A DNA stretch of 40,405 nucleotides from Thermoflexales bacterium (GTDB lineage Bacteria > Chloroflexota > Anaerolineae > J036 > Brachytrichaceae): contig JAIBCK010000024.1 of assembly GCA_019694215.1 (NCBI GenBank), forward strand, positions 1 through 40,405, in the 5' to 3' direction. A program made the position numbers and the translations under genes. Below, piece after piece: positions 10,275-23,107 of the stretch. The notes beneath the pieces are model-generated. The model was given only the letters and a program-made list of their open reading frames with translations, ran no database searches and was not told the DNA's origin. Position 1 is the first letter of the stretch. Every line of letters starts with the position of its first letter.

Positions 10275-11843
10275 CTAGTCGAGCTGGCGATAGCCGGGCA
10301 GGGTGAGGAACTCCTCGTAGCGCTCGGCCAGCACCAGCGTATCGAGCAGTGCCAGCGCGTCGCGGAAGCGCCCGCGCTCCAGCCCGCCGATGCGGGCCAC
10401 TTCCTCGTCGCGCAGCTGGGCATACAGCGCGGGCGTGAACGCGCGCCCATCCGCCAGGGTCGCCGCGTTGCGCAGCCATTGCCACAGCTGCGAGCGCGAG
10501 ATTTCGGCGGTCGCGGCATCCTCCATCAGGTTGTTGATTGCCGCCGCGCCATTGCCGCGCAGCCAGCTCTCGATGTACTGCAAGCCGACCGAAATGTTGT
10601 TGCGCACGCCGGCTTCGGTCACCGTGCCGTTGGGGATGGCGAAATCTGTCAGCGCCCGGGCGTTGGGTACGACCTCCTCACGCAGGCGCTCCTTCAGATG
10701 CGGCCGCTCGCCGAGTTTGGCGTCGAAGCAGGCGAGCGCCGTAGGCACCAGGTCCGGATGCGCCACCCAGGTGCCATCAAAGCCGTCGCCGCTCTCGCGC
10801 TCCTTGTCCGCGCGCACGGCTTTCAGCGCGGTCTCGTTCACCGCGGCGTCCTTGCGGCTGGGGATGAAGGCGGCCATCCCGCCAATGGCATGCGCGCCGC
10901 GCTTGTGGCAGGTGCGCACCAGCAGCTCGGTGTAGGCGCGCATGAACGGCACCGTCATCGTCACCTGCGCGCGGTCCGGGAAGATCAGCCCGGGCCAGGT
11001 CTTGAACTTCTTGATGCAGCTGAAGATGTAGTCCCAGCGCCCGGCGTTGAGCCCGGCCGAATGCGCGCGCAACTCGTAGAGGATCTCCTCCATCTCGAAG
11101 GCGCCCAGGATTGTCTCGATCAGCACCGTTGCGCGGACGCTGCCCGAAGGCACGCCGCAGTAGCCTTCAGCGAAGAAGAAGACGTCGTTCCACAACCGCG
11201 CCTCCAGGTGGCTCTCGAGCTTGGGGAGGTAGAAATACGGGCCACTCCCGCGCGAGAGCAGCTCGCGGGCGTTGTGGAAGAAGTACAGCCCGAAGTCGAA
11301 CAGGCTGGCGCTCACGGGCGCGCCATCCAGCGTGGCGTGCTTCTCGGTCATGTGCCAGCCGCGCGGGCGGACGAGCAGTGTGGCGACCTTTTCGTTGAGC
11401 GCGTATTCGCGCCCGTCGGGTGCGGTGAAGGCGATGCGCCTGCGGATGGCGTCCTGCAGGTTGATCTGCCCCTGGATGACGTTGTCCCAGGTGGGTGCGT
11501 TGGCGTCCTCGAGGTCGGCCATGAACATCGGCGCGCCGCTGTTGAGCGCGTTGATCATCATCTTGCGCTCGACCGGGCCGGTGATCTCGACGCGTCGGTT
11601 CTGCAGATCGGCCGGCGTCACCGCGACTTTCCAATCGGCATTCCGAATGCCGGCCGTCTCGGGCAGGAAGTCGAGCGCGACCCCCTGTTCGATGTCGCGC
11701 TGTCGCTCGGCGCGCCGCGCAAGCAGCGCTTCACGGCGCGGGTTGAAGGCGCGCTGGAGGGCTTCGACGAATGCCAGGGCTTCCGGGCTGAGAACTGTGG
11801 CGTAGGCGACGCTGACGGGGGCGCTAATCTTGATCGGGCTCAT
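10275..11843 (-). CDS. aceB: Malate synthase A
   Basis: 522 residues; condenses glyoxylate with acetyl-CoA to malate. The family signature is intact ([14 protein letters not shown], residues 261-274), as are [15 protein letters not shown] (107-121) and the catalytic Arg region [14 protein letters not shown] (157-169). It ends in the expected helical C-terminal plug region. No isocitrate lyase lies in this window, so the glyoxylate source is unknown. There is no Shine-Dalgarno: TAAAAT ends 6 nt before the ATG, so the mRNA is probably leaderless. The gene is divergent from the MoxR gene across only 28 bp. Confidence 0.97.
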
Positions 11844-17778: not shown

Positions 17779-19011
17779 TCAGCCCTTGTGCACGCGCGCG
17801 TACTGGCGCTTGCCGACCTTGAGGACGACCGGCTGCGCGAGGTCCAACGTTTCTTTCCAATCCGCGACCTTGCGCCCGTCCACCGTGACGCCACCCCCCT
17901 CGATCAGACGGCGGGCCTCGCCCTTGGACTTGGCCAGCTTTGCCTCGGCGATGACATCCACGATGTTGAGCGAGCCCGTCACGGTTACGTCGGGGATGTT
18001 CTCCGGCACCTCGCGTTCGCGGAAGCGGGTGATGAAATCGCGCTCGGCGCGCGCGGCAGCGTCCGCGTCGTGGAAGATGGTCACGATCTCGCGGGCCAGC
18101 TCCATTTTGAGGTCGCGCGGGTTGTTGGCCGGGTCCGCAATGCGCTTCAGCACATCGGCGAGCATCGGCGGTGTATAGCGCGTGGCCAGCTCGAAATACA
18201 GCGGCATGGCGGCATCCGGCACGCTCATGACCTTGCCATACATGTCCTCGGGCGTGGACAGGATGGGGATATGGTTGCCCAGCGACTTCGACATCTTGAT
18301 GACGCCATCCGTGCCGGGCAGAATCTTGACGAACACGCCGATCTGCGGGCGCTTGCCCGCGGCCTGCTGCAGCTTGCGGCCTGCCGTCAGCACGTTGAAG
18401 AACTGATCGGTGCCGCCCACCTGCACGTCGGTGTCCTGGGCCACGGCGTCGTAGCCCTGCATCAGCGCGTAAAAGGTCTCGTGCAGGTAGATTGGATCGC
18501 CCTTCTCCAGCCGCTGCGCAAAGTTCTCGCGCGTCAGGAACTGCTGCAGGGTGAAGTTCTCGGCCAGCTTGATCACGTCGAGGAAGCTCAACTCGCTCAG
18601 CCACTCGGCGTTGAAGCGCACCTGCGTGCGCGAGCGGTCCAGGATCTTGAAGGCCTGTTCCGAGTAGGTTCGGCTGTTCGCCGCCACCTGTTCCGAGGTC
18701 AGCTGCGGGCGCAGCTTGTCCTTGTCCGAGGGATCGCCCAGCAGGCTCGTGTAGGTGCCGATCAGAAAGGTGACGTCGTGGCCGAGCTCCTGGAACTGGC
18801 GCAGCTTGCGCATCGTGATGGTGTGGCCGATGTGCAGGTCGGAAGTGCGCGGGTCATAGCCGCAATACACCTTGAGCGGCTTTCCGGTCCGGGCGCTTTC
18901 CTCGAGCCGCACGCGCAGTTCGCGCGCCATCGTTGCGGCGATCTGGGGGTCGCCGTAGTCCGTGCCCTGCATCAGCAGGGCCACCTGTTCATCGATCGTC
19001 ATCGTCGCCAT
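17779..19011 (-). CDS. tyrS: Tyrosyl-tRNA synthetase
   Basis: 410 residues, class I synthetase. HIGH is at 60-63 (DLHIGHT) and KMSKS at 239-243; the anticodon-binding middle and a C-terminal S4 RNA-binding domain (AKSKGEARRLIEGGGVTVDG) are present. The ATG at 19011 overlaps the glycosyltransferase gene by 23 nt; an ATG at 19002 is an alternative. No Shine-Dalgarno, so it relies on translational coupling at the end of a seven-gene minus-strand operon. An essential gene in this position suggests the operon is expressed constitutively. Confidence 0.97.
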   Translation of the reverse strand: MATMTIDEQVALLMQGTDYGDPQIAATMARELRVRLEESARTGKPLKVYCGYDPRTSDLHIGHTITMRKLRQFQELGHDVTFLIGTYTSLLGDPSDKDKLRPQLTSEQVAANSRTYSEQAFKILDRSRTQVRFNAEWLSELSFLDVIKLAENFTLQQFLTRENFAQRLEKGDPIYLHETFYALMQGYDAVAQDTDVQVGGTDQFFNVLTAGRKLQQAAGKRPQIGVFVKILPGTDGVIKMSKSLGNHIPILSTPEDMYGKVMSVPDAAMPLYFELATRYTPPMLADVLKRIADPANNPRDLKMELAREIVTIFHDADAAARAERDFITRFREREVPENIPDVTVTGSLNIVDVIAEAKLAKSKGEARRLIEGGGVTVDGRKVADWKETLDLAQPVVLKVGKRQYARVHKG

Positions 19012-20083
19012 GGCGCGCCGGATTGTAACGGACGAATTCCCGCGCCTTTGCCATGCTCGTCGCCCAGCTTGGATGCACATCGAAGCGCGCCCGGGCGGCC
19101 AGGCTCATCGCTGCCAAACGCTTGCGATCCATCTGCACGGCGTTCAGGGCGCCCGCGATGGCTGCCGCGTCGCCCGGCGCCACCAGCCAGCCGTCGGCCT
19201 CCGGCGTGATGATCTCGCCGGCCGCGCCGGCCCGGCTGGCCAGCGCGGGCAGCCCGAACCCCATCCCCTCGATGTAGACGATGCCGTAGCCCTCGTAACT
19301 GGAGGGCAGCGCCAGCACATCGCTCTCGCGCAGCGCCGCCCCGAGCGCGTCATCGCTCAGCGCGCCGTCAAAGCGCACCCATGCCGCGCGCTGGCCGGCC
19401 TCGGCCTGCCGGCGCAGGCCTGCGGCATAGTCCGTTTCTGTCGGATGCCCAACGATGCGAAGCCGCACACTTCCGGGCGCCAGGCGGATGACTGCGTCGA
19501 TCAGCGTGTGCAAACCCTTGCGCGGGATGAGGTTGCCGACAGCGATCACCCGGAGCGGCCCACTGTGCGTTGTGCGAAGGAGAATCTCGTCCCGGCCCGG
19601 CAGCGCCTTCCAGCGGTCCCCGGCCGGGAGCGCCACGCAGCCCGGCTTGTCGGCGCCGATCAGCGCCTCGACCGCCGCGCGGGTCGTCGCGCTGTTGAAG
19701 ATGAATCCATCCAGCCCGCGCAGATACGCGCGCTCGACGGCGGCGTAGCCGCGGTTCTGCCAGGCCGCCCGCGCCTCGCTCGCGCGCAGGTGATGGACGA
19801 TGCCGATCCGCCGCACACCGGCCGGCACCAGCCGCCCGGCGCGCAGCAGCGATGGGTGATTGAGCTCATCCTCGAGCAGGACCTCGCCGCGGAAGGCGCG
19901 CAAGCGGGCCGCCCAGGCCGGAGACACGCTATCGCTCAGGTGGCGGGCATAGCCGCGCCAGGGTCGGGACAGGATTTCGACCGTGTCCCCGCCAGCGCGC
20001 AGGGCGTCGACGAGATGGCGGTCGTAGCGATAGCCCCCGGACTGATCGGCCAGCGCGCCGTAGATCACCAGCCCGATGTGCAT
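18989..20083 (-). CDS. Family 4 glycosyltransferase
   Basis: 364 residues with GT-B fold. The N-terminal acceptor domain starts HIGLVIYGALADQSGGYRYD, and the donor domain has the GNLIPRKG loop and the E-x7-E-like SYEGYGIVYIEGMGFG motif. Retaining transferase using a nucleotide sugar; acceptor unknown. Starts 6 nt after the PTPS-like gene and its end overlaps tyrS. Its place among pyrimidine/pterin-type genes suggests the acceptor may be a small heterocycle rather than cell wall. Confidence 0.88.
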   Translation of the reverse strand: MHIGLVIYGALADQSGGYRYDRHLVDALRAGGDTVEILSRPWRGYARHLSDSVSPAWAARLRAFRGEVLLEDELNHPSLLRAGRLVPAGVRRIGIVHHLRASEARAAWQNRGYAAVERAYLRGLDGFIFNSATTRAAVEALIGADKPGCVALPAGDRWKALPGRDEILLRTTHSGPLRVIAVGNLIPRKGLHTLIDAVIRLAPGSVRLRIVGHPTETDYAAGLRRQAEAGQRAAWVRFDGALSDDALGAALRESDVLALPSSYEGYGIVYIEGMGFGLPALASRAGAAGEIITPEADGWLVAPGDAAAIAGALNAVQMDRKRLAAMSLAARARFDVHPSWATSMAKAREFVRYNPARHGDDDDR

Positions 20084-20089
20084 GGCGGC

Positions 20090-20470
20090 TCAGTTCAGCG
20101 GCTGCGCGTAGGCCGCCCAGGCGATGTCGTTCTCCCACAGCTTGACCGTCATCGCGCTCAGCGTGTCGGCTCGGATGGCACCCGCAAGCCGTTCGCACAG
20201 GAAGCGCGCAAAACGCTCCAGGCTCGGGTTCAGCCCGGCGAATTCAGGCAGGTCGTTGAGCACGCGGTTGGCGTAGCGGGCAATCTGCGCGTCGAGCGCG
20301 CGCTCGATGTCCAGGATATCGACGAGATAGCCATGCTGATCCAGACGCGGCCCGCTCAGCGTGAGCTCGAGCACGTAGGCGTGGGCGTGAACGTCGTTCT
20401 CGGCGCCCCAGTCGCCGCCGATCAGGGCGTGTTGGGCGATGAATTTGCGTTGGACGGATACCGAATACAT
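20090..20470 (-). CDS. 6-pyruvoyl-tetrahydropterin synthase/QueD homologue with altered catalytic site
   Basis: 126 residues of the T-fold PTPS/QueD family. The zinc ligands are kept: His14 (AQHAL), His28 and His30 (VHAHAY). The catalytic residues are not. The Cys that lies four residues before HxH in QueD is Glu24, and the LDHxxLN motif reads YANRVLND, replacing Asp-His with Ala67-Asn68. The C-terminal Glu113 (LWEN) remains. PTPS-III enzymes of folate synthesis also have Glu for Cys, but they would normally keep Asp-His. The substrate is therefore uncertain and 6-carboxy-tetrahydropterin synthesis is unlikely. The ATG at 20470 lies inside the upstream dehydrogenase gene (49-nt overlap). Confidence 0.85.
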   Translation of the reverse strand: MYSVSVQRKFIAQHALIGGDWGAENDVHAHAYVLELTLSGPRLDQHGYLVDILDIERALDAQIARYANRVLNDLPEFAGLNPSLERFARFLCERLAGAIRADTLSAMTVKLWENDIAWAAYAQPLN

Positions 20471-21486
20471 GACGACTCCGGCGCGCGGCCCCAGTTGCCG
20501 CGCGTAAAGGCGACCTGCAGCGTCTCGCCCGGCCGCGCATCCACCTGCGCGTAGGCGGCCGCGGCGCGGTCGAGCGGATAACGGTGCGTGATCAGCCGCG
20601 CGGGCTGCACGGCGCGGCAGAGCTGCCAGGCCGTCGCGATGCGGCGGGCCTTGCTCCAGCGCCCGCTCAGGGCGGGGGCCAGCGTGCTGACCTGGCTGCT
20701 GATCAGGCGGATGCGCGAACGGTGGAAGCGCCCGCCCAGATCGAGCTCGACGCGCTTGCGGCCATACCACGAGCCGATCACGACGCGCCCGTCAAAGCCG
20801 CACAGCGCGATGGCCTGATCGAGCGCGGCCGGCGCGCCGCTCAGCTCGTAGACCAGGTCGGCGCCCTCGCTCCCGGCGCTGCCCTGCGTCGGATCGTGCG
20901 ATTGCGTGGCGCCCAGCGCCAGCGAGGCGTGCCGCCGGTTTGCAAAACGGTCAAAAGTGACAATCAGCTCGGGACCGAGCCGCGCCAGCGCCGCCGTCGT
21001 AAGCAGCCCGACGATGCCCTGACCGAGCACGACGATGCGCTCGCCCAGCAGGGGGGCGCCATCGTGCGCGAAATTGACCGCCGTTTCCAGGTTGGGCAGA
21101 AAGAGGGCGTCCTCATCGCTGATCCCGTCCGGGATTGCGATCAGCTCGGCGACCGGGGCGACAAAGGCGCTGGCGTGCGGCTGAAAGGCGAACACCCGCC
21201 GATCCTGCCAGCCCGCCTCGACGCCGGGACCGAGTGTTATGACCCGCCCAACGCAGGAATATCCATAGCGGAGCGGGTAGCCAAGCGTGCCGCCCAGGGC
21301 CGCGATGGTGGCGTCGGTGGACTCGCCCGGCGGGAACTGGCCGCGGTAGATCAGCATCTCGGTGCCGGGGCTGATGGCAGAGGCCAGCACCTCGACGCGC
21401 ACCTCGCCCGGACCCGGTGCGGCGAGGGCGAGCTCGCGCACGGCGACCTGGCCGGGGCCGTCGAACCACAGGGCGAGTGCGCTCAT
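20422..21486 (-). CDS. MDR-superfamily zinc-type dehydrogenase lacking the catalytic-zinc Cys
   Basis: 354 residues. GroES-like N-terminal domain and Rossmann nucleotide-binding domain (VVLGQGIVGLLTTAA). Where alcohol dehydrogenases have the catalytic-zinc Cys, this protein reads ISPGTEMLIYRG, the form seen in BchC-like and related MDR proteins, and there is no structural-zinc Cys cluster. It probably oxidises or reduces a polyol or side chain with NAD(P). Its start overlaps the stop of the ribD-like gene (ATGA) and its C-terminus overlaps the PTPS homologue by 49 nt. The last ~20 residues look like read-over of the next gene's start region. Confidence 0.85.
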   Translation of the reverse strand: MSALALWFDGPGQVAVRELALAAPGPGEVRVEVLASAISPGTEMLIYRGQFPPGESTDATIAALGGTLGYPLRYGYSCVGRVITLGPGVEAGWQDRRVFAFQPHASAFVAPVAELIAIPDGISDEDALFLPNLETAVNFAHDGAPLLGERIVVLGQGIVGLLTTAALARLGPELIVTFDRFANRRHASLALGATQSHDPTQGSAGSEGADLVYELSGAPAALDQAIALCGFDGRVVIGSWYGRKRVELDLGGRFHRSRIRLISSQVSTLAPALSGRWSKARRIATAWQLCRAVQPARLITHRYPLDRAAAAYAQVDARPGETLQVAFTRGNWGRAPESSCIRYPSNANSSPNTP

Positions 21487-22148
21487 GCGGCCTCCCGATC
21501 CGACAGCCGCGCTTCGAGCACGCGGTCATCGCCCAGGTCACGCCAGACCGGATCATGCAGCTGGAGGGCAAGGGGGCGGGTGAGTGCGGGCAGCCCGCCG
21601 AGCCAGCGCGGTGCCACGGTGACGCTGATGCGGTCGGCGTGGCCACCGGCCAGGAACGCCGTCAATACCCCGGCGCCGCCCTCGACCATGAGGGTGCGGA
21701 TTCCACGCCCGCCCAGCGCCGCCAGCAGCGCGGAGAGGTCGATACGCCCGGCCGCGTCACTGGCCAACGGAAAAAGCTCGGCGCCGAGCGCCTGCAACGG
21801 CTCGACCAGGGCGGCATCCCCGGCGGCCGCGTGCGTTGTGGCCAGCCAGGGGCGGTGGGTGGGATGGCGGAGCAGGGCCGCCGAAAGCGGCAGCCGCAAC
21901 CGACTGTCCAGCACGATGGGCTGCGGGTGGTTGCCGCTGGCGAGGCGCACGGTGAGGCGGGGGTCATCGGCCAGCACGGTGCCGATCCCGACCAGCACGG
22001 CGTCATGCGCCGCGCGCAGGCGATGCGTGTATGCCAGGCTTTCCGGGCCGCTGAGGGGGGTGCGGGTCCCCGGGCGCGCCGCAATGCAGCCGTCCAGGCT
22101 CTGCGCATACGCGACGGTGACGAGGGGGCGTCGGTCGGAGACGGCCAC
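21483..22148 (-). CDS. RibD C-terminal (DHFR-like) reductase, stand-alone
   Basis: 221 residues matching the reductase half of RibD, with no N-terminal deaminase domain. Landmarks are VAYAQSLDGCIAA, VGIGTVLADDPRLTVR, PIVLDSRLRLPL and LMVEGGAGVLTAFL. Stand-alone versions reduce the ribosyl side chain of aminopyrimidine phosphates. Starts at a GTG (22148) 3 nt after the ribA stop. With ribA directly upstream, the simplest reading is reduction of the ribA product to 2,5-diamino-6-ribitylamino-pyrimidinone phosphate, without deamination by this protein. Confidence 0.88.
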   Translation of the reverse strand: MAVSDRRPLVTVAYAQSLDGCIAARPGTRTPLSGPESLAYTHRLRAAHDAVLVGIGTVLADDPRLTVRLASGNHPQPIVLDSRLRLPLSAALLRHPTHRPWLATTHAAAGDAALVEPLQALGAELFPLASDAAGRIDLSALLAALGGRGIRTLMVEGGAGVLTAFLAGGHADRISVTVAPRWLGGLPALTRPLALQLHDPVWRDLGDDRVLEARLSDREAA

Positions 22149-22151
22149 GCG

Positions 22152-22757
22152 TCAGCCCAGGTCGAGCAGGTGGCGCATGCGGGCCGCCTTGGTGCGCAGG
22201 TAGTGCGCGTTGTCCGTGTTCTCGGCCACCTGCAGCGGGACGCGCGCGCTGACATCCACGCCGAGCGCGCGCAGGCTGTCGATCTTGGCCGGATTGTTCG
22301 TCATCAGGCGGATCGAAGCGACGTTCCAATCGCGCAGGATCAGCGCTGCGGCGGTGTAGTCGCGCTCATCAGCCTGGTGGCCAAGCAGCAGGTTGGCATC
22401 CACGGTGTCATAGCCCTCATCCTGCAGGTTGTAGGCGCGCAATTTGCTCAGCAGGCCGATCCCGCGTCCTTCCTGGCGCAGGTAGATGATCATGCCGGCA
22501 CCCGCTTCCGCGATCAGCGCCATGGCCAGGTTGAGTTGCGGCCCGCAATCGCAGCGCCGTGAGCCGAGCACGTCCCCCGTGAAGCACTCCGAGTGAATGC
22601 GGACGAGAAAATTACGTTTTGCAGTCGGATCGCCCATCACCAGCGCAAGGTGTTCCTTGCTGTCATGATTGTTGGCATACAGGGCGAGCTGAAACTCGCC
22701 GGCATCGGTCGGCACGCGGGCGACGGCCTGGCGTGTCAGGGTCAGGGCGTCGGTCAT
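22152..22757 (-). CDS. ribA: GTP cyclohydrolase II
   Basis: 201 residues; opens GTP to a 2,5-diaminopyrimidine with loss of formate and pyrophosphate. Zinc ligands Cys58, Cys69, Cys71 (HSECFTGDVLGSRRCDCG), the catalytic YLRQEGRGIGL and YNLQDEGYDTVDAN blocks are intact. Tyr109 matches E. coli RibA Tyr105, so formyl release should be normal. No DHBP synthase (ribB) domain is fused, and no ribB, ribE or ribH is nearby. Its ATG overlaps the stop of the preceding membrane-protein gene (ATGA). Confidence 0.96.
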   Translation of the reverse strand: MTDALTLTRQAVARVPTDAGEFQLALYANNHDSKEHLALVMGDPTAKRNFLVRIHSECFTGDVLGSRRCDCGPQLNLAMALIAEAGAGMIIYLRQEGRGIGLLSKLRAYNLQDEGYDTVDANLLLGHQADERDYTAAALILRDWNVASIRLMTNNPAKIDSLRALGVDVSARVPLQVAENTDNAHYLRTKAARMRHLLDLG

Positions 22758-23107
22758 GGGCGTCTGCCGGGCGTCAGGCGCCCGAAGGCCCAGGTCGCGG
22801 CGATGAGCAACAGCTCATCGATCTTGGCCACGTAGCCCATCCAACCCTCAGGCAGGCTCTTGTCCCCGAGCACCACCCACGCCAGAATGGTGACGATGGA
22901 AAATGCGATCAGGGCGTAGCGCACCAGCGCTTCCCTGCCGGCCAGAAATGCGGGCTGGACGACCACCAGTGCCGCAAGTGCCAGAAATCCGATGCCGTTC
23001 AGCACGAACGGGATGCCCGCGCCGGGCGCCCGGACGAAGTGGATGATTGCCGTGATGGCTGCCAACACGAGGATGGCCGTACGCAAAAATGATCGGTTGT
23101 TCAACAC
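22754..23107 (-). CDS. Small integral membrane protein at head of ribA operon
   Basis: 117 residues from the GTG at 23107 (GAGGAA 3 nt upstream; a TTG immediately after is possible). Four hydrophobic segments, about residues 8-24, 33-50, 65-83 and 95-110. No family recognised. A longer frame upstream to 23284 lacks support. It is coupled to ribA by an ATGA overlap, hence a possible transporter or membrane anchor for the pathway, though nothing in the sequence proves this. Confidence 0.65.
   Translation of the reverse strand: MLNNRSFLRTAILVLAAITAIIHFVRAPGAGIPFVLNGIGFLALAALVVVQPAFLAGREALVRYALIAFSIVTILAWVVLGDKSLPEGWMGYVAKIDELLLIAATWAFGRLTPGRRP

Follow-up and report, generated by a model that had tools for sequence, protein, structure and literature searches.

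A gene in a Thermoflexales contig (GenBank JAIBCK010000024.1, assembly GCA_019694215.1) encodes a protein of the PTPS/QueD family in which the expected catalytic residues appear to be replaced. This raises the question of whether such a protein is still an enzyme and, if so, which pathway it serves. The stretch of DNA analysed, referred to below as the window, is 40,405 nucleotides long.

Operon Structure

The PTPS gene is part of a tight operon with the order DUF7475-RibA-RibD_C-dehydrogenase-PTPS-glycosyltransferase (Table 1). Gaps between the genes do not exceed 6 nt and overlaps do not exceed 49 nt. The dehydrogenase gene runs 49 nt into the PTPS gene and is itself overlapped by the RibD_C gene by 4 nt, the gap between RibA and RibD_C is 3 nt, and the GT4 gene begins 6 nt past the PTPS stop. 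The catalytic zinc ligands are missing from the dehydrogenase in all relatives aligned, and motifs resembling S-x-x-S-x-GTE and YGY are common to the enzymes of Streptomyces, Thiodictyon, Methylosinus and Chloroflexota. Plasmid relatives of this dehydrogenase are annotated as “zinc-binding”, yet the ligands are lost in every phylum aligned. The tyrS gene (17779–19011) follows the GT4 gene on the same strand with a possible short overlap, and may be co-transcribed with the operon.

Table 1. Genes of the operon and active-site positions of the PTPS protein, in window coordinates.
Feature	Position	Strand	Evidence and remarks
DUF7475-like small membrane protein	22754–23107	minus	likely GTG start at 23107; PF24287 weak, below cut-off; three hydrophobic segments; homologue beside RibA in other loci
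GTP cyclohydrolase II (RibA)	22152–22757	minus	sole genome copy; TIGR00505 above cut-off; KxRAY Tyr kept
RibD_C reductase without deaminase domain	21483–22148	minus	PF01872, E 2.6e-42; sub-cut-off match to the archaeal diaminopyrimidine reductase model (E 5.9e-35)
Zinc-less medium-chain dehydrogenase, BchC-like	20422–21486	minus	ADH_zinc_N, E 8.3e-9; BchC model, 6e-24, below cut-off
PTPS/T-fold protein, 126 aa	20090–20470	minus	ATG at 20470, stop 20090–20092; PF01242 match
His14, zinc ligand	20429–20431	minus	alignment
Glu24-Asn25, catalytic-Cys column and the next one	20396–20401	minus	invariant in 101/101 relatives (alignment)
His28-Ala-His30, two of three zinc ligands	20381–20389	minus	alignment
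Ala67-Asn68, where the catalytic Asp-His is expected	20267–20272	minus	alignment
Glu113, anchor position	20132–20134	minus	conserved in 100/101 relatives (alignment)
GT4-family glycosyltransferase	18989–20083	minus	PF00534, E 2.6e-27

Fold and Active-Site Residues

The PTPS protein matches the Pfam PTPS family (PF01242) with an E-value of 4.5e-25 and 88.4 bits, above the curated cut-off of 22.4. Against the NCBIfam QueD equivalog model it scores 43.8 bits and does not reach the cut-off of 89.25. An AlphaFold2 model, built with the window protein and 34 relatives as input, features a T-fold with a pLDDT of 93.6. The nearest solved structure is SCO6650 (PDB 3d7j; TM 0.88, Z 18.2), also the best PDB match by sequence (E 3.6e-12), with E. 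coli QueD behind (Z 16.6); the model was fold-matched to QueD and PTPS as well.

The residue columns were read from an alignment of the window clade (101 sequences) with nine canonical QueDs. All nine QueD rows carry Cys in column 24 and Asp-His in columns 67–68, where the window protein has Glu24 and Ala67-Asn68. The sequence-only reading had proposed exactly these replacements, together with the presence of the zinc ligands His14, His28 and His30, and the alignment agrees with it on each point. A Cys or Asp-His pair hidden by an indel, which that reading had named as a possible error, is ruled out by the alignment with the nine QueDs. Glu113, the pterin/pyrimidine-anchor position, is kept in the window protein and in all QueD rows.

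In a scan of genome contigs, the PTPS protein had at least 418 relatives. Within the window clade (n = 101), His14, Glu24, Asn25, His30, His46, Asp51, Asn81, Ser83 and Glu85 are invariant. An Asp67-His68 pair occurs in none of the 101 rows. Most sequences have Arg or Lys in column 67 (94 of 101) and Asp or Glu in column 68 (97 of 101), hence Ala67-Asn68 itself is a quirk of the window sequence, and the loss of Cys and Asp-His is a property of the whole clade. This loss is common to two related groups, namely a second Chloroflexota group (FGPA, HGH) and the SCO6650 type (FGPAQ, HGA). The zinc ligands are kept in the window protein, as had been claimed, but not throughout the clade, where His28 is replaced by Asn in 16 of the 101 sequences. 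With the third His being Ala in proteins of the SCO6650 type, these replacements suggest that zinc binding may be dispensable.

One copy (genome G184, locus L049, 7458–7841) is an orphan with no cluster neighbours, in which Glu113 is replaced by Lys, Trp21 by Ala and Trp112 by Tyr. It is the sole case of Glu113 to Lys among the 101 sequences, and its genome is the sole PTPS-positive one without RibA (n = 32). A search for phage carriage of the PTPS gene gave no match.

Subfamily Placement

The PTPS family encountered here is already recognised, with both SCO6650 (PDB 3d7j) and the PTPS-IV neighbourhood published. The SCO6650 structure paper reportedly describes the protein as having neither zinc nor PTPS activity. 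To our knowledge, no catalytic activity has been assigned to the PTPS-IV subfamily, and we know of no assay for the window clade.

The motifs of the subfamilies are CxxxHGH for PTPS-I, CxxxxxHGH for PTPS-II and ExxHGH for PTPS-III (PMC5041015). The window protein reads ExxxHAH in place of the PTPS-I motif, with Ala67-Asn68 instead of the catalytic Asp-His of QueD/PTPS-I, and, unlike PTPS-II, has no Cys near the His pair. It resembles PTPS-III in the acidic residue ahead of the zinc His pair, and the Cys-to-Glu replacement had been compared with that subfamily; the comparison does not hold, as Glu24 occupies the PTPS-I Cys position (−4 from the first zinc His) and Asn25 the PTPS-III Glu position (−3) (motif from PMC5041015). 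The folate genes are absent, too. With QueD/PTPS-I the protein shares the T-fold, the zinc His positions and the anchor Glu, but it lacks Cys and Asp-His, and no queuosine genes surround it.

Members of the PTPS-IV subfamily of COG0720 “preferentially” carry the signature FGPAQ and lie in a neighbourhood of PF00925 and PF01872 (AGeNNT 2017, PMC5445326). The same two families, GTP cyclohydrolase II (PF00925) and RibD_C (PF01872), adjoin the window gene, but in place of the signature, which is not strict, the window protein has WGAEN; it is therefore called a variant or sister of PTPS-IV. The window clade probably falls in the same tree group as PTPS-IV. It is set apart by its WGxEN motif, by a long branch of its own and by Glu24-Asn25 and His46, which never vary. 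SCO6650 likewise has no Cys and no Asp-His. It is only 31% identical to the window protein, has FGPAQ and HGA where the latter has WGAEN and HAH, and lacks the third zinc His. A close relative of SCO6650 on a Streptomyces plasmid shares its locus with the dehydrogenase, GT4, methyltransferase and RibA genes known from window-type clusters; unlike the window, this locus also has a creatininase gene nearby, and the RAY motif of its RibA carries Met in place of Tyr.

In a tree of 72 sequences, the window clade, the FGPA clade and the SCO6650 type are grouped together apart from QueD (support 97/90), and a smaller tree unites the three again (98/97). The AU test rejected neither placement of the window clade with QueD (p 0.29) nor that with PH0634 (p 0.31), which is not surprising with 127 columns. 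The kinship with PTPS-IV thus rests on bootstrap support and gene order. Judging by the tree and the gene order, we place the window protein as a putative divergent Chloroflexota sister of the published, uncharacterised PTPS-IV (FGPAQ) subfamily, and not in QueD, PTPS-II or PTPS-III. The sequence-only reading had maintained that it is no canonical QueD/PTPS, and this is supported.

Genome Content and Co-Distribution

The window genome is 96% complete and contains one PTPS and one RibA, the latter being that of the operon. The canonical queD and folB that the earlier reading had asked after were both sought, and neither is there; no second PTPS was found. FolE, FolE2, FolB, HPPK and lumazine synthase had no match in this genome either, where, at 96% completeness, single absences could be gaps. 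The folate pathway expected alongside a PTPS-III enzyme is not apparent in this genome, which has no match to HPPK, FolE or FolE2.

Among Chloroflexota, RibA is present in 31 of 32 PTPS-positive genomes versus 3 of 20 PTPS-negative ones, the latter being the first 20 listed genomes of the same family or class (Fisher p 9e-10, in a test that ignores phylogeny). The association has the same direction in the four families (f1, f2, f4 and f7) that hold both states. Lumazine synthase is present in 5/32 carriers, and RibA is still kept in 26 of the 27 that lack it. RibA therefore tracks the PTPS protein and not riboflavin synthesis. Full-length QueC, at E below 1e-70, was matched in 2/32 carriers, and the window genome has a partial weak match only. 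A general role of the cluster as a FolE replacement is not supported, FolE being present in 26/32 carriers. These distributions warn against inferring riboflavin, folate or queuosine synthesis from a RibA or PTPS gene.

Recurrence of the Cluster

The cluster is common, with hundreds of loci, and occurs in several phyla, with carriers in Chloroflexota, Streptomyces and Proteobacteria; the Anaerolineae genomes that have it without lumazine synthase also have GTP cyclohydrolase II. Counts were made on 63 Chloroflexota loci whose flanks extend at least 4 kb upstream and 3 kb downstream. Of these, 56 carry GT4, and in 55 it lies directly downstream of PTPS on the same strand; the dehydrogenase was found in 52/63, the methyltransferase in 38/63, RibD_C in 37/63, RibA in 35/63 and an LPG_synthase_TM membrane protein in 31/63. 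Without exception, RibA, RibD_C, the dehydrogenase, GT4 and the methyltransferase share the strand of PTPS. In the Chloroflexota FGPA group, RibA, RibD_C, the dehydrogenase and GT4 are likewise present. Plasmid copies occur in Streptomyces, Thiodictyon, Methylosinus, Rhodobacteraceae, Neorhizobium and Microbacterium, and here the dehydrogenase adjoins PTPS, followed mostly by GT4 and the methyltransferase. Genes for CDP-alcohol phosphatidyltransferase and LPG_synthase_TM lie near the clusters in Streptomyces, Microbacterium and some Chloroflexota; as putative cluster members, they hint at a membrane link. A literature search found no published pathway with this gene set.

Several loci deserve separate mention. 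In eight Chloroflexota loci (L039, L043, L046, L050–L052, L134 and L152), a 2-phosphosulpholactate-phosphatase-like gene or a Na+/H+ exchanger gene is located between the dehydrogenase and PTPS. Chloroflexota-type clusters were found on contigs binned to other phyla (L114, a Calditrichia MAG, and L137, a Smithella MAG), reflecting either a binning error or transfer. Two Neisseria gonorrhoeae records of about 2.17 Mb (H27, NZ_CP119142.1, and H28, NZ_CP119140.1) are listed as plasmids, and their size looks chromosomal.

Proposed Pathway and Alternative Explanations

We regard the window protein, with moderate confidence, as a divergent T-fold enzyme resembling PTPS-IV, at work in a dedicated pathway that is initiated by GTP cyclohydrolase II and distinct from the synthesis of riboflavin, folate and queuosine. 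Most likely, it would act on the diaminopyrimidine derived from GTP cyclohydrolase II, or on a pterin formed from it, toward a glycosylated compound. A non-canonical reaction on a pyrimidine derived from RibA and RibD_C, or on the pterin made from that pyrimidine, is plausible and fits the operon, what the genome contains and the co-distribution. To this extent, the earlier suggestion of a different reaction, perhaps on a pyrimidine, stands; the likeness to PTPS-III does not, and the family was already published.

In such a pathway, RibA would open GTP to 2,5-diamino-6-ribosylamino-pyrimidinone 5′-phosphate, as is the activity of its family, and RibD_C would reduce the ribosyl group to ribityl, the 2-amino group presumably staying in place as there is no deaminase. 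The zinc-less dehydrogenase may then oxidise a side-chain hydroxyl to a ketone. If the ketone were at C2′, ring closure by the 5-amino group could give a dihydropterin (dihydroneopterin phosphate) with no need for GTP cyclohydrolase I, a route that is chemically plausible but speculative. The PTPS-like protein would hold the pyrimidine or pterin via Glu113 and the zinc His cluster, with Glu24 possibly acting as the general base or acid in place of Cys and Asp-His in ring closure, tautomerisation or side-chain processing. Judging by gene order, the glycosyltransferase would add a sugar and, in most relatives, the methyltransferase a methyl group. The full version of this scheme, in which RibA, ribosyl reduction, C2′ re-oxidation by the zinc-less dehydrogenase and closure by the Glu24 T-fold protein lead from GTP to a pterin without GTP cyclohydrolase I, and the glycosylated, methylated product is a new cofactor or membrane-associated molecule across several bacterial phyla, is put forward tentatively, as an unlikely case. 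The putative orphan GTP-derived metabolite is directly testable by metabolomics.

The alternative that survives best, though we regard it as improbable, is that catalysis has been lost and the protein is a pterin- or pyrimidine-binding carrier or a subunit of the dehydrogenase. The catalytic triad is gone in all clades of the group, which is consistent with this idea, as is the reported lack of zinc and PTPS activity in SCO6650. However, six residues (Glu24, Asn25, His30, His46, Asp51 and Glu85) never vary and Glu113 almost never does (n = 101), a pattern resembling a working active site. Less probable still is an odd branch of riboflavin or deazaflavin (F420) synthesis with the PTPS protein as an accessory, despite RibA and RibD_C being riboflavin-type enzymes and Zallot et al. 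placing PTPS-IV in F420 synthesis, as unpublished data (PMC5041015). Lumazine synthase is absent from the window genome and 27/32 carriers, and neither known route has a place for the glycosyltransferase and methyltransferase.

A PTPS-III-type enzyme with a catalytic Glu replacing FolB in folate synthesis is very unlikely: Glu24 lies close to the first zinc His and the genome lacks FolB, but the motif is ExxxHxH and not ExxHGH (PMC5041015), HPPK, FolE and FolE2 are all missing from the window genome, and the neighbours are RibA and RibD_C with no folate genes. A divergent QueD still serving queuosine synthesis is the least credible, since against the PTPS/QueD fold, the status of sole PTPS in the genome and the NCBI annotation of plasmid relatives as 6-carboxytetrahydropterin synthase stand the QueD score of less than half the cut-off, the clade-wide loss of Cys and Asp-His, the rarity of full-length QueC among carriers, its partial weak match in the window genome and the lack of FolE or FolE2 there to supply the substrate. 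The public annotation is almost certainly wrong for these PTPS proteins.

RibA Variants

A dedicated pathway starting from RibA can also be viewed in the light of the two RibA variants in the clusters. In RibA of the Streptomyces cluster, Met replaces the Tyr of RAY, a residue that E. coli and the aligned Chloroflexota RibA keep. Spoonamore et al. (2006) reportedly found that such a Met-type enzyme of S. coelicolor goes no further than the formylated pyrimidine. In riboflavin synthesis, formamide hydrolases of the creatininase family act in the deformylation of that pyrimidine (PMC9478397). Met-type RibA with creatininase and Tyr-type RibA would then yield the same diaminopyrimidine, and this common end point would support the RibA product as the PTPS substrate. 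Creatininase was looked for near the Chloroflexota clusters, and none was found. On a Streptomyces fungicidicus plasmid (L053, 10578–13138), the Met-type RibA lies beside a creatininase-family gene. The same plasmid carries an LPG_synthase_TM gene at 10578–11792, which is missing from the PLSDB gene table.
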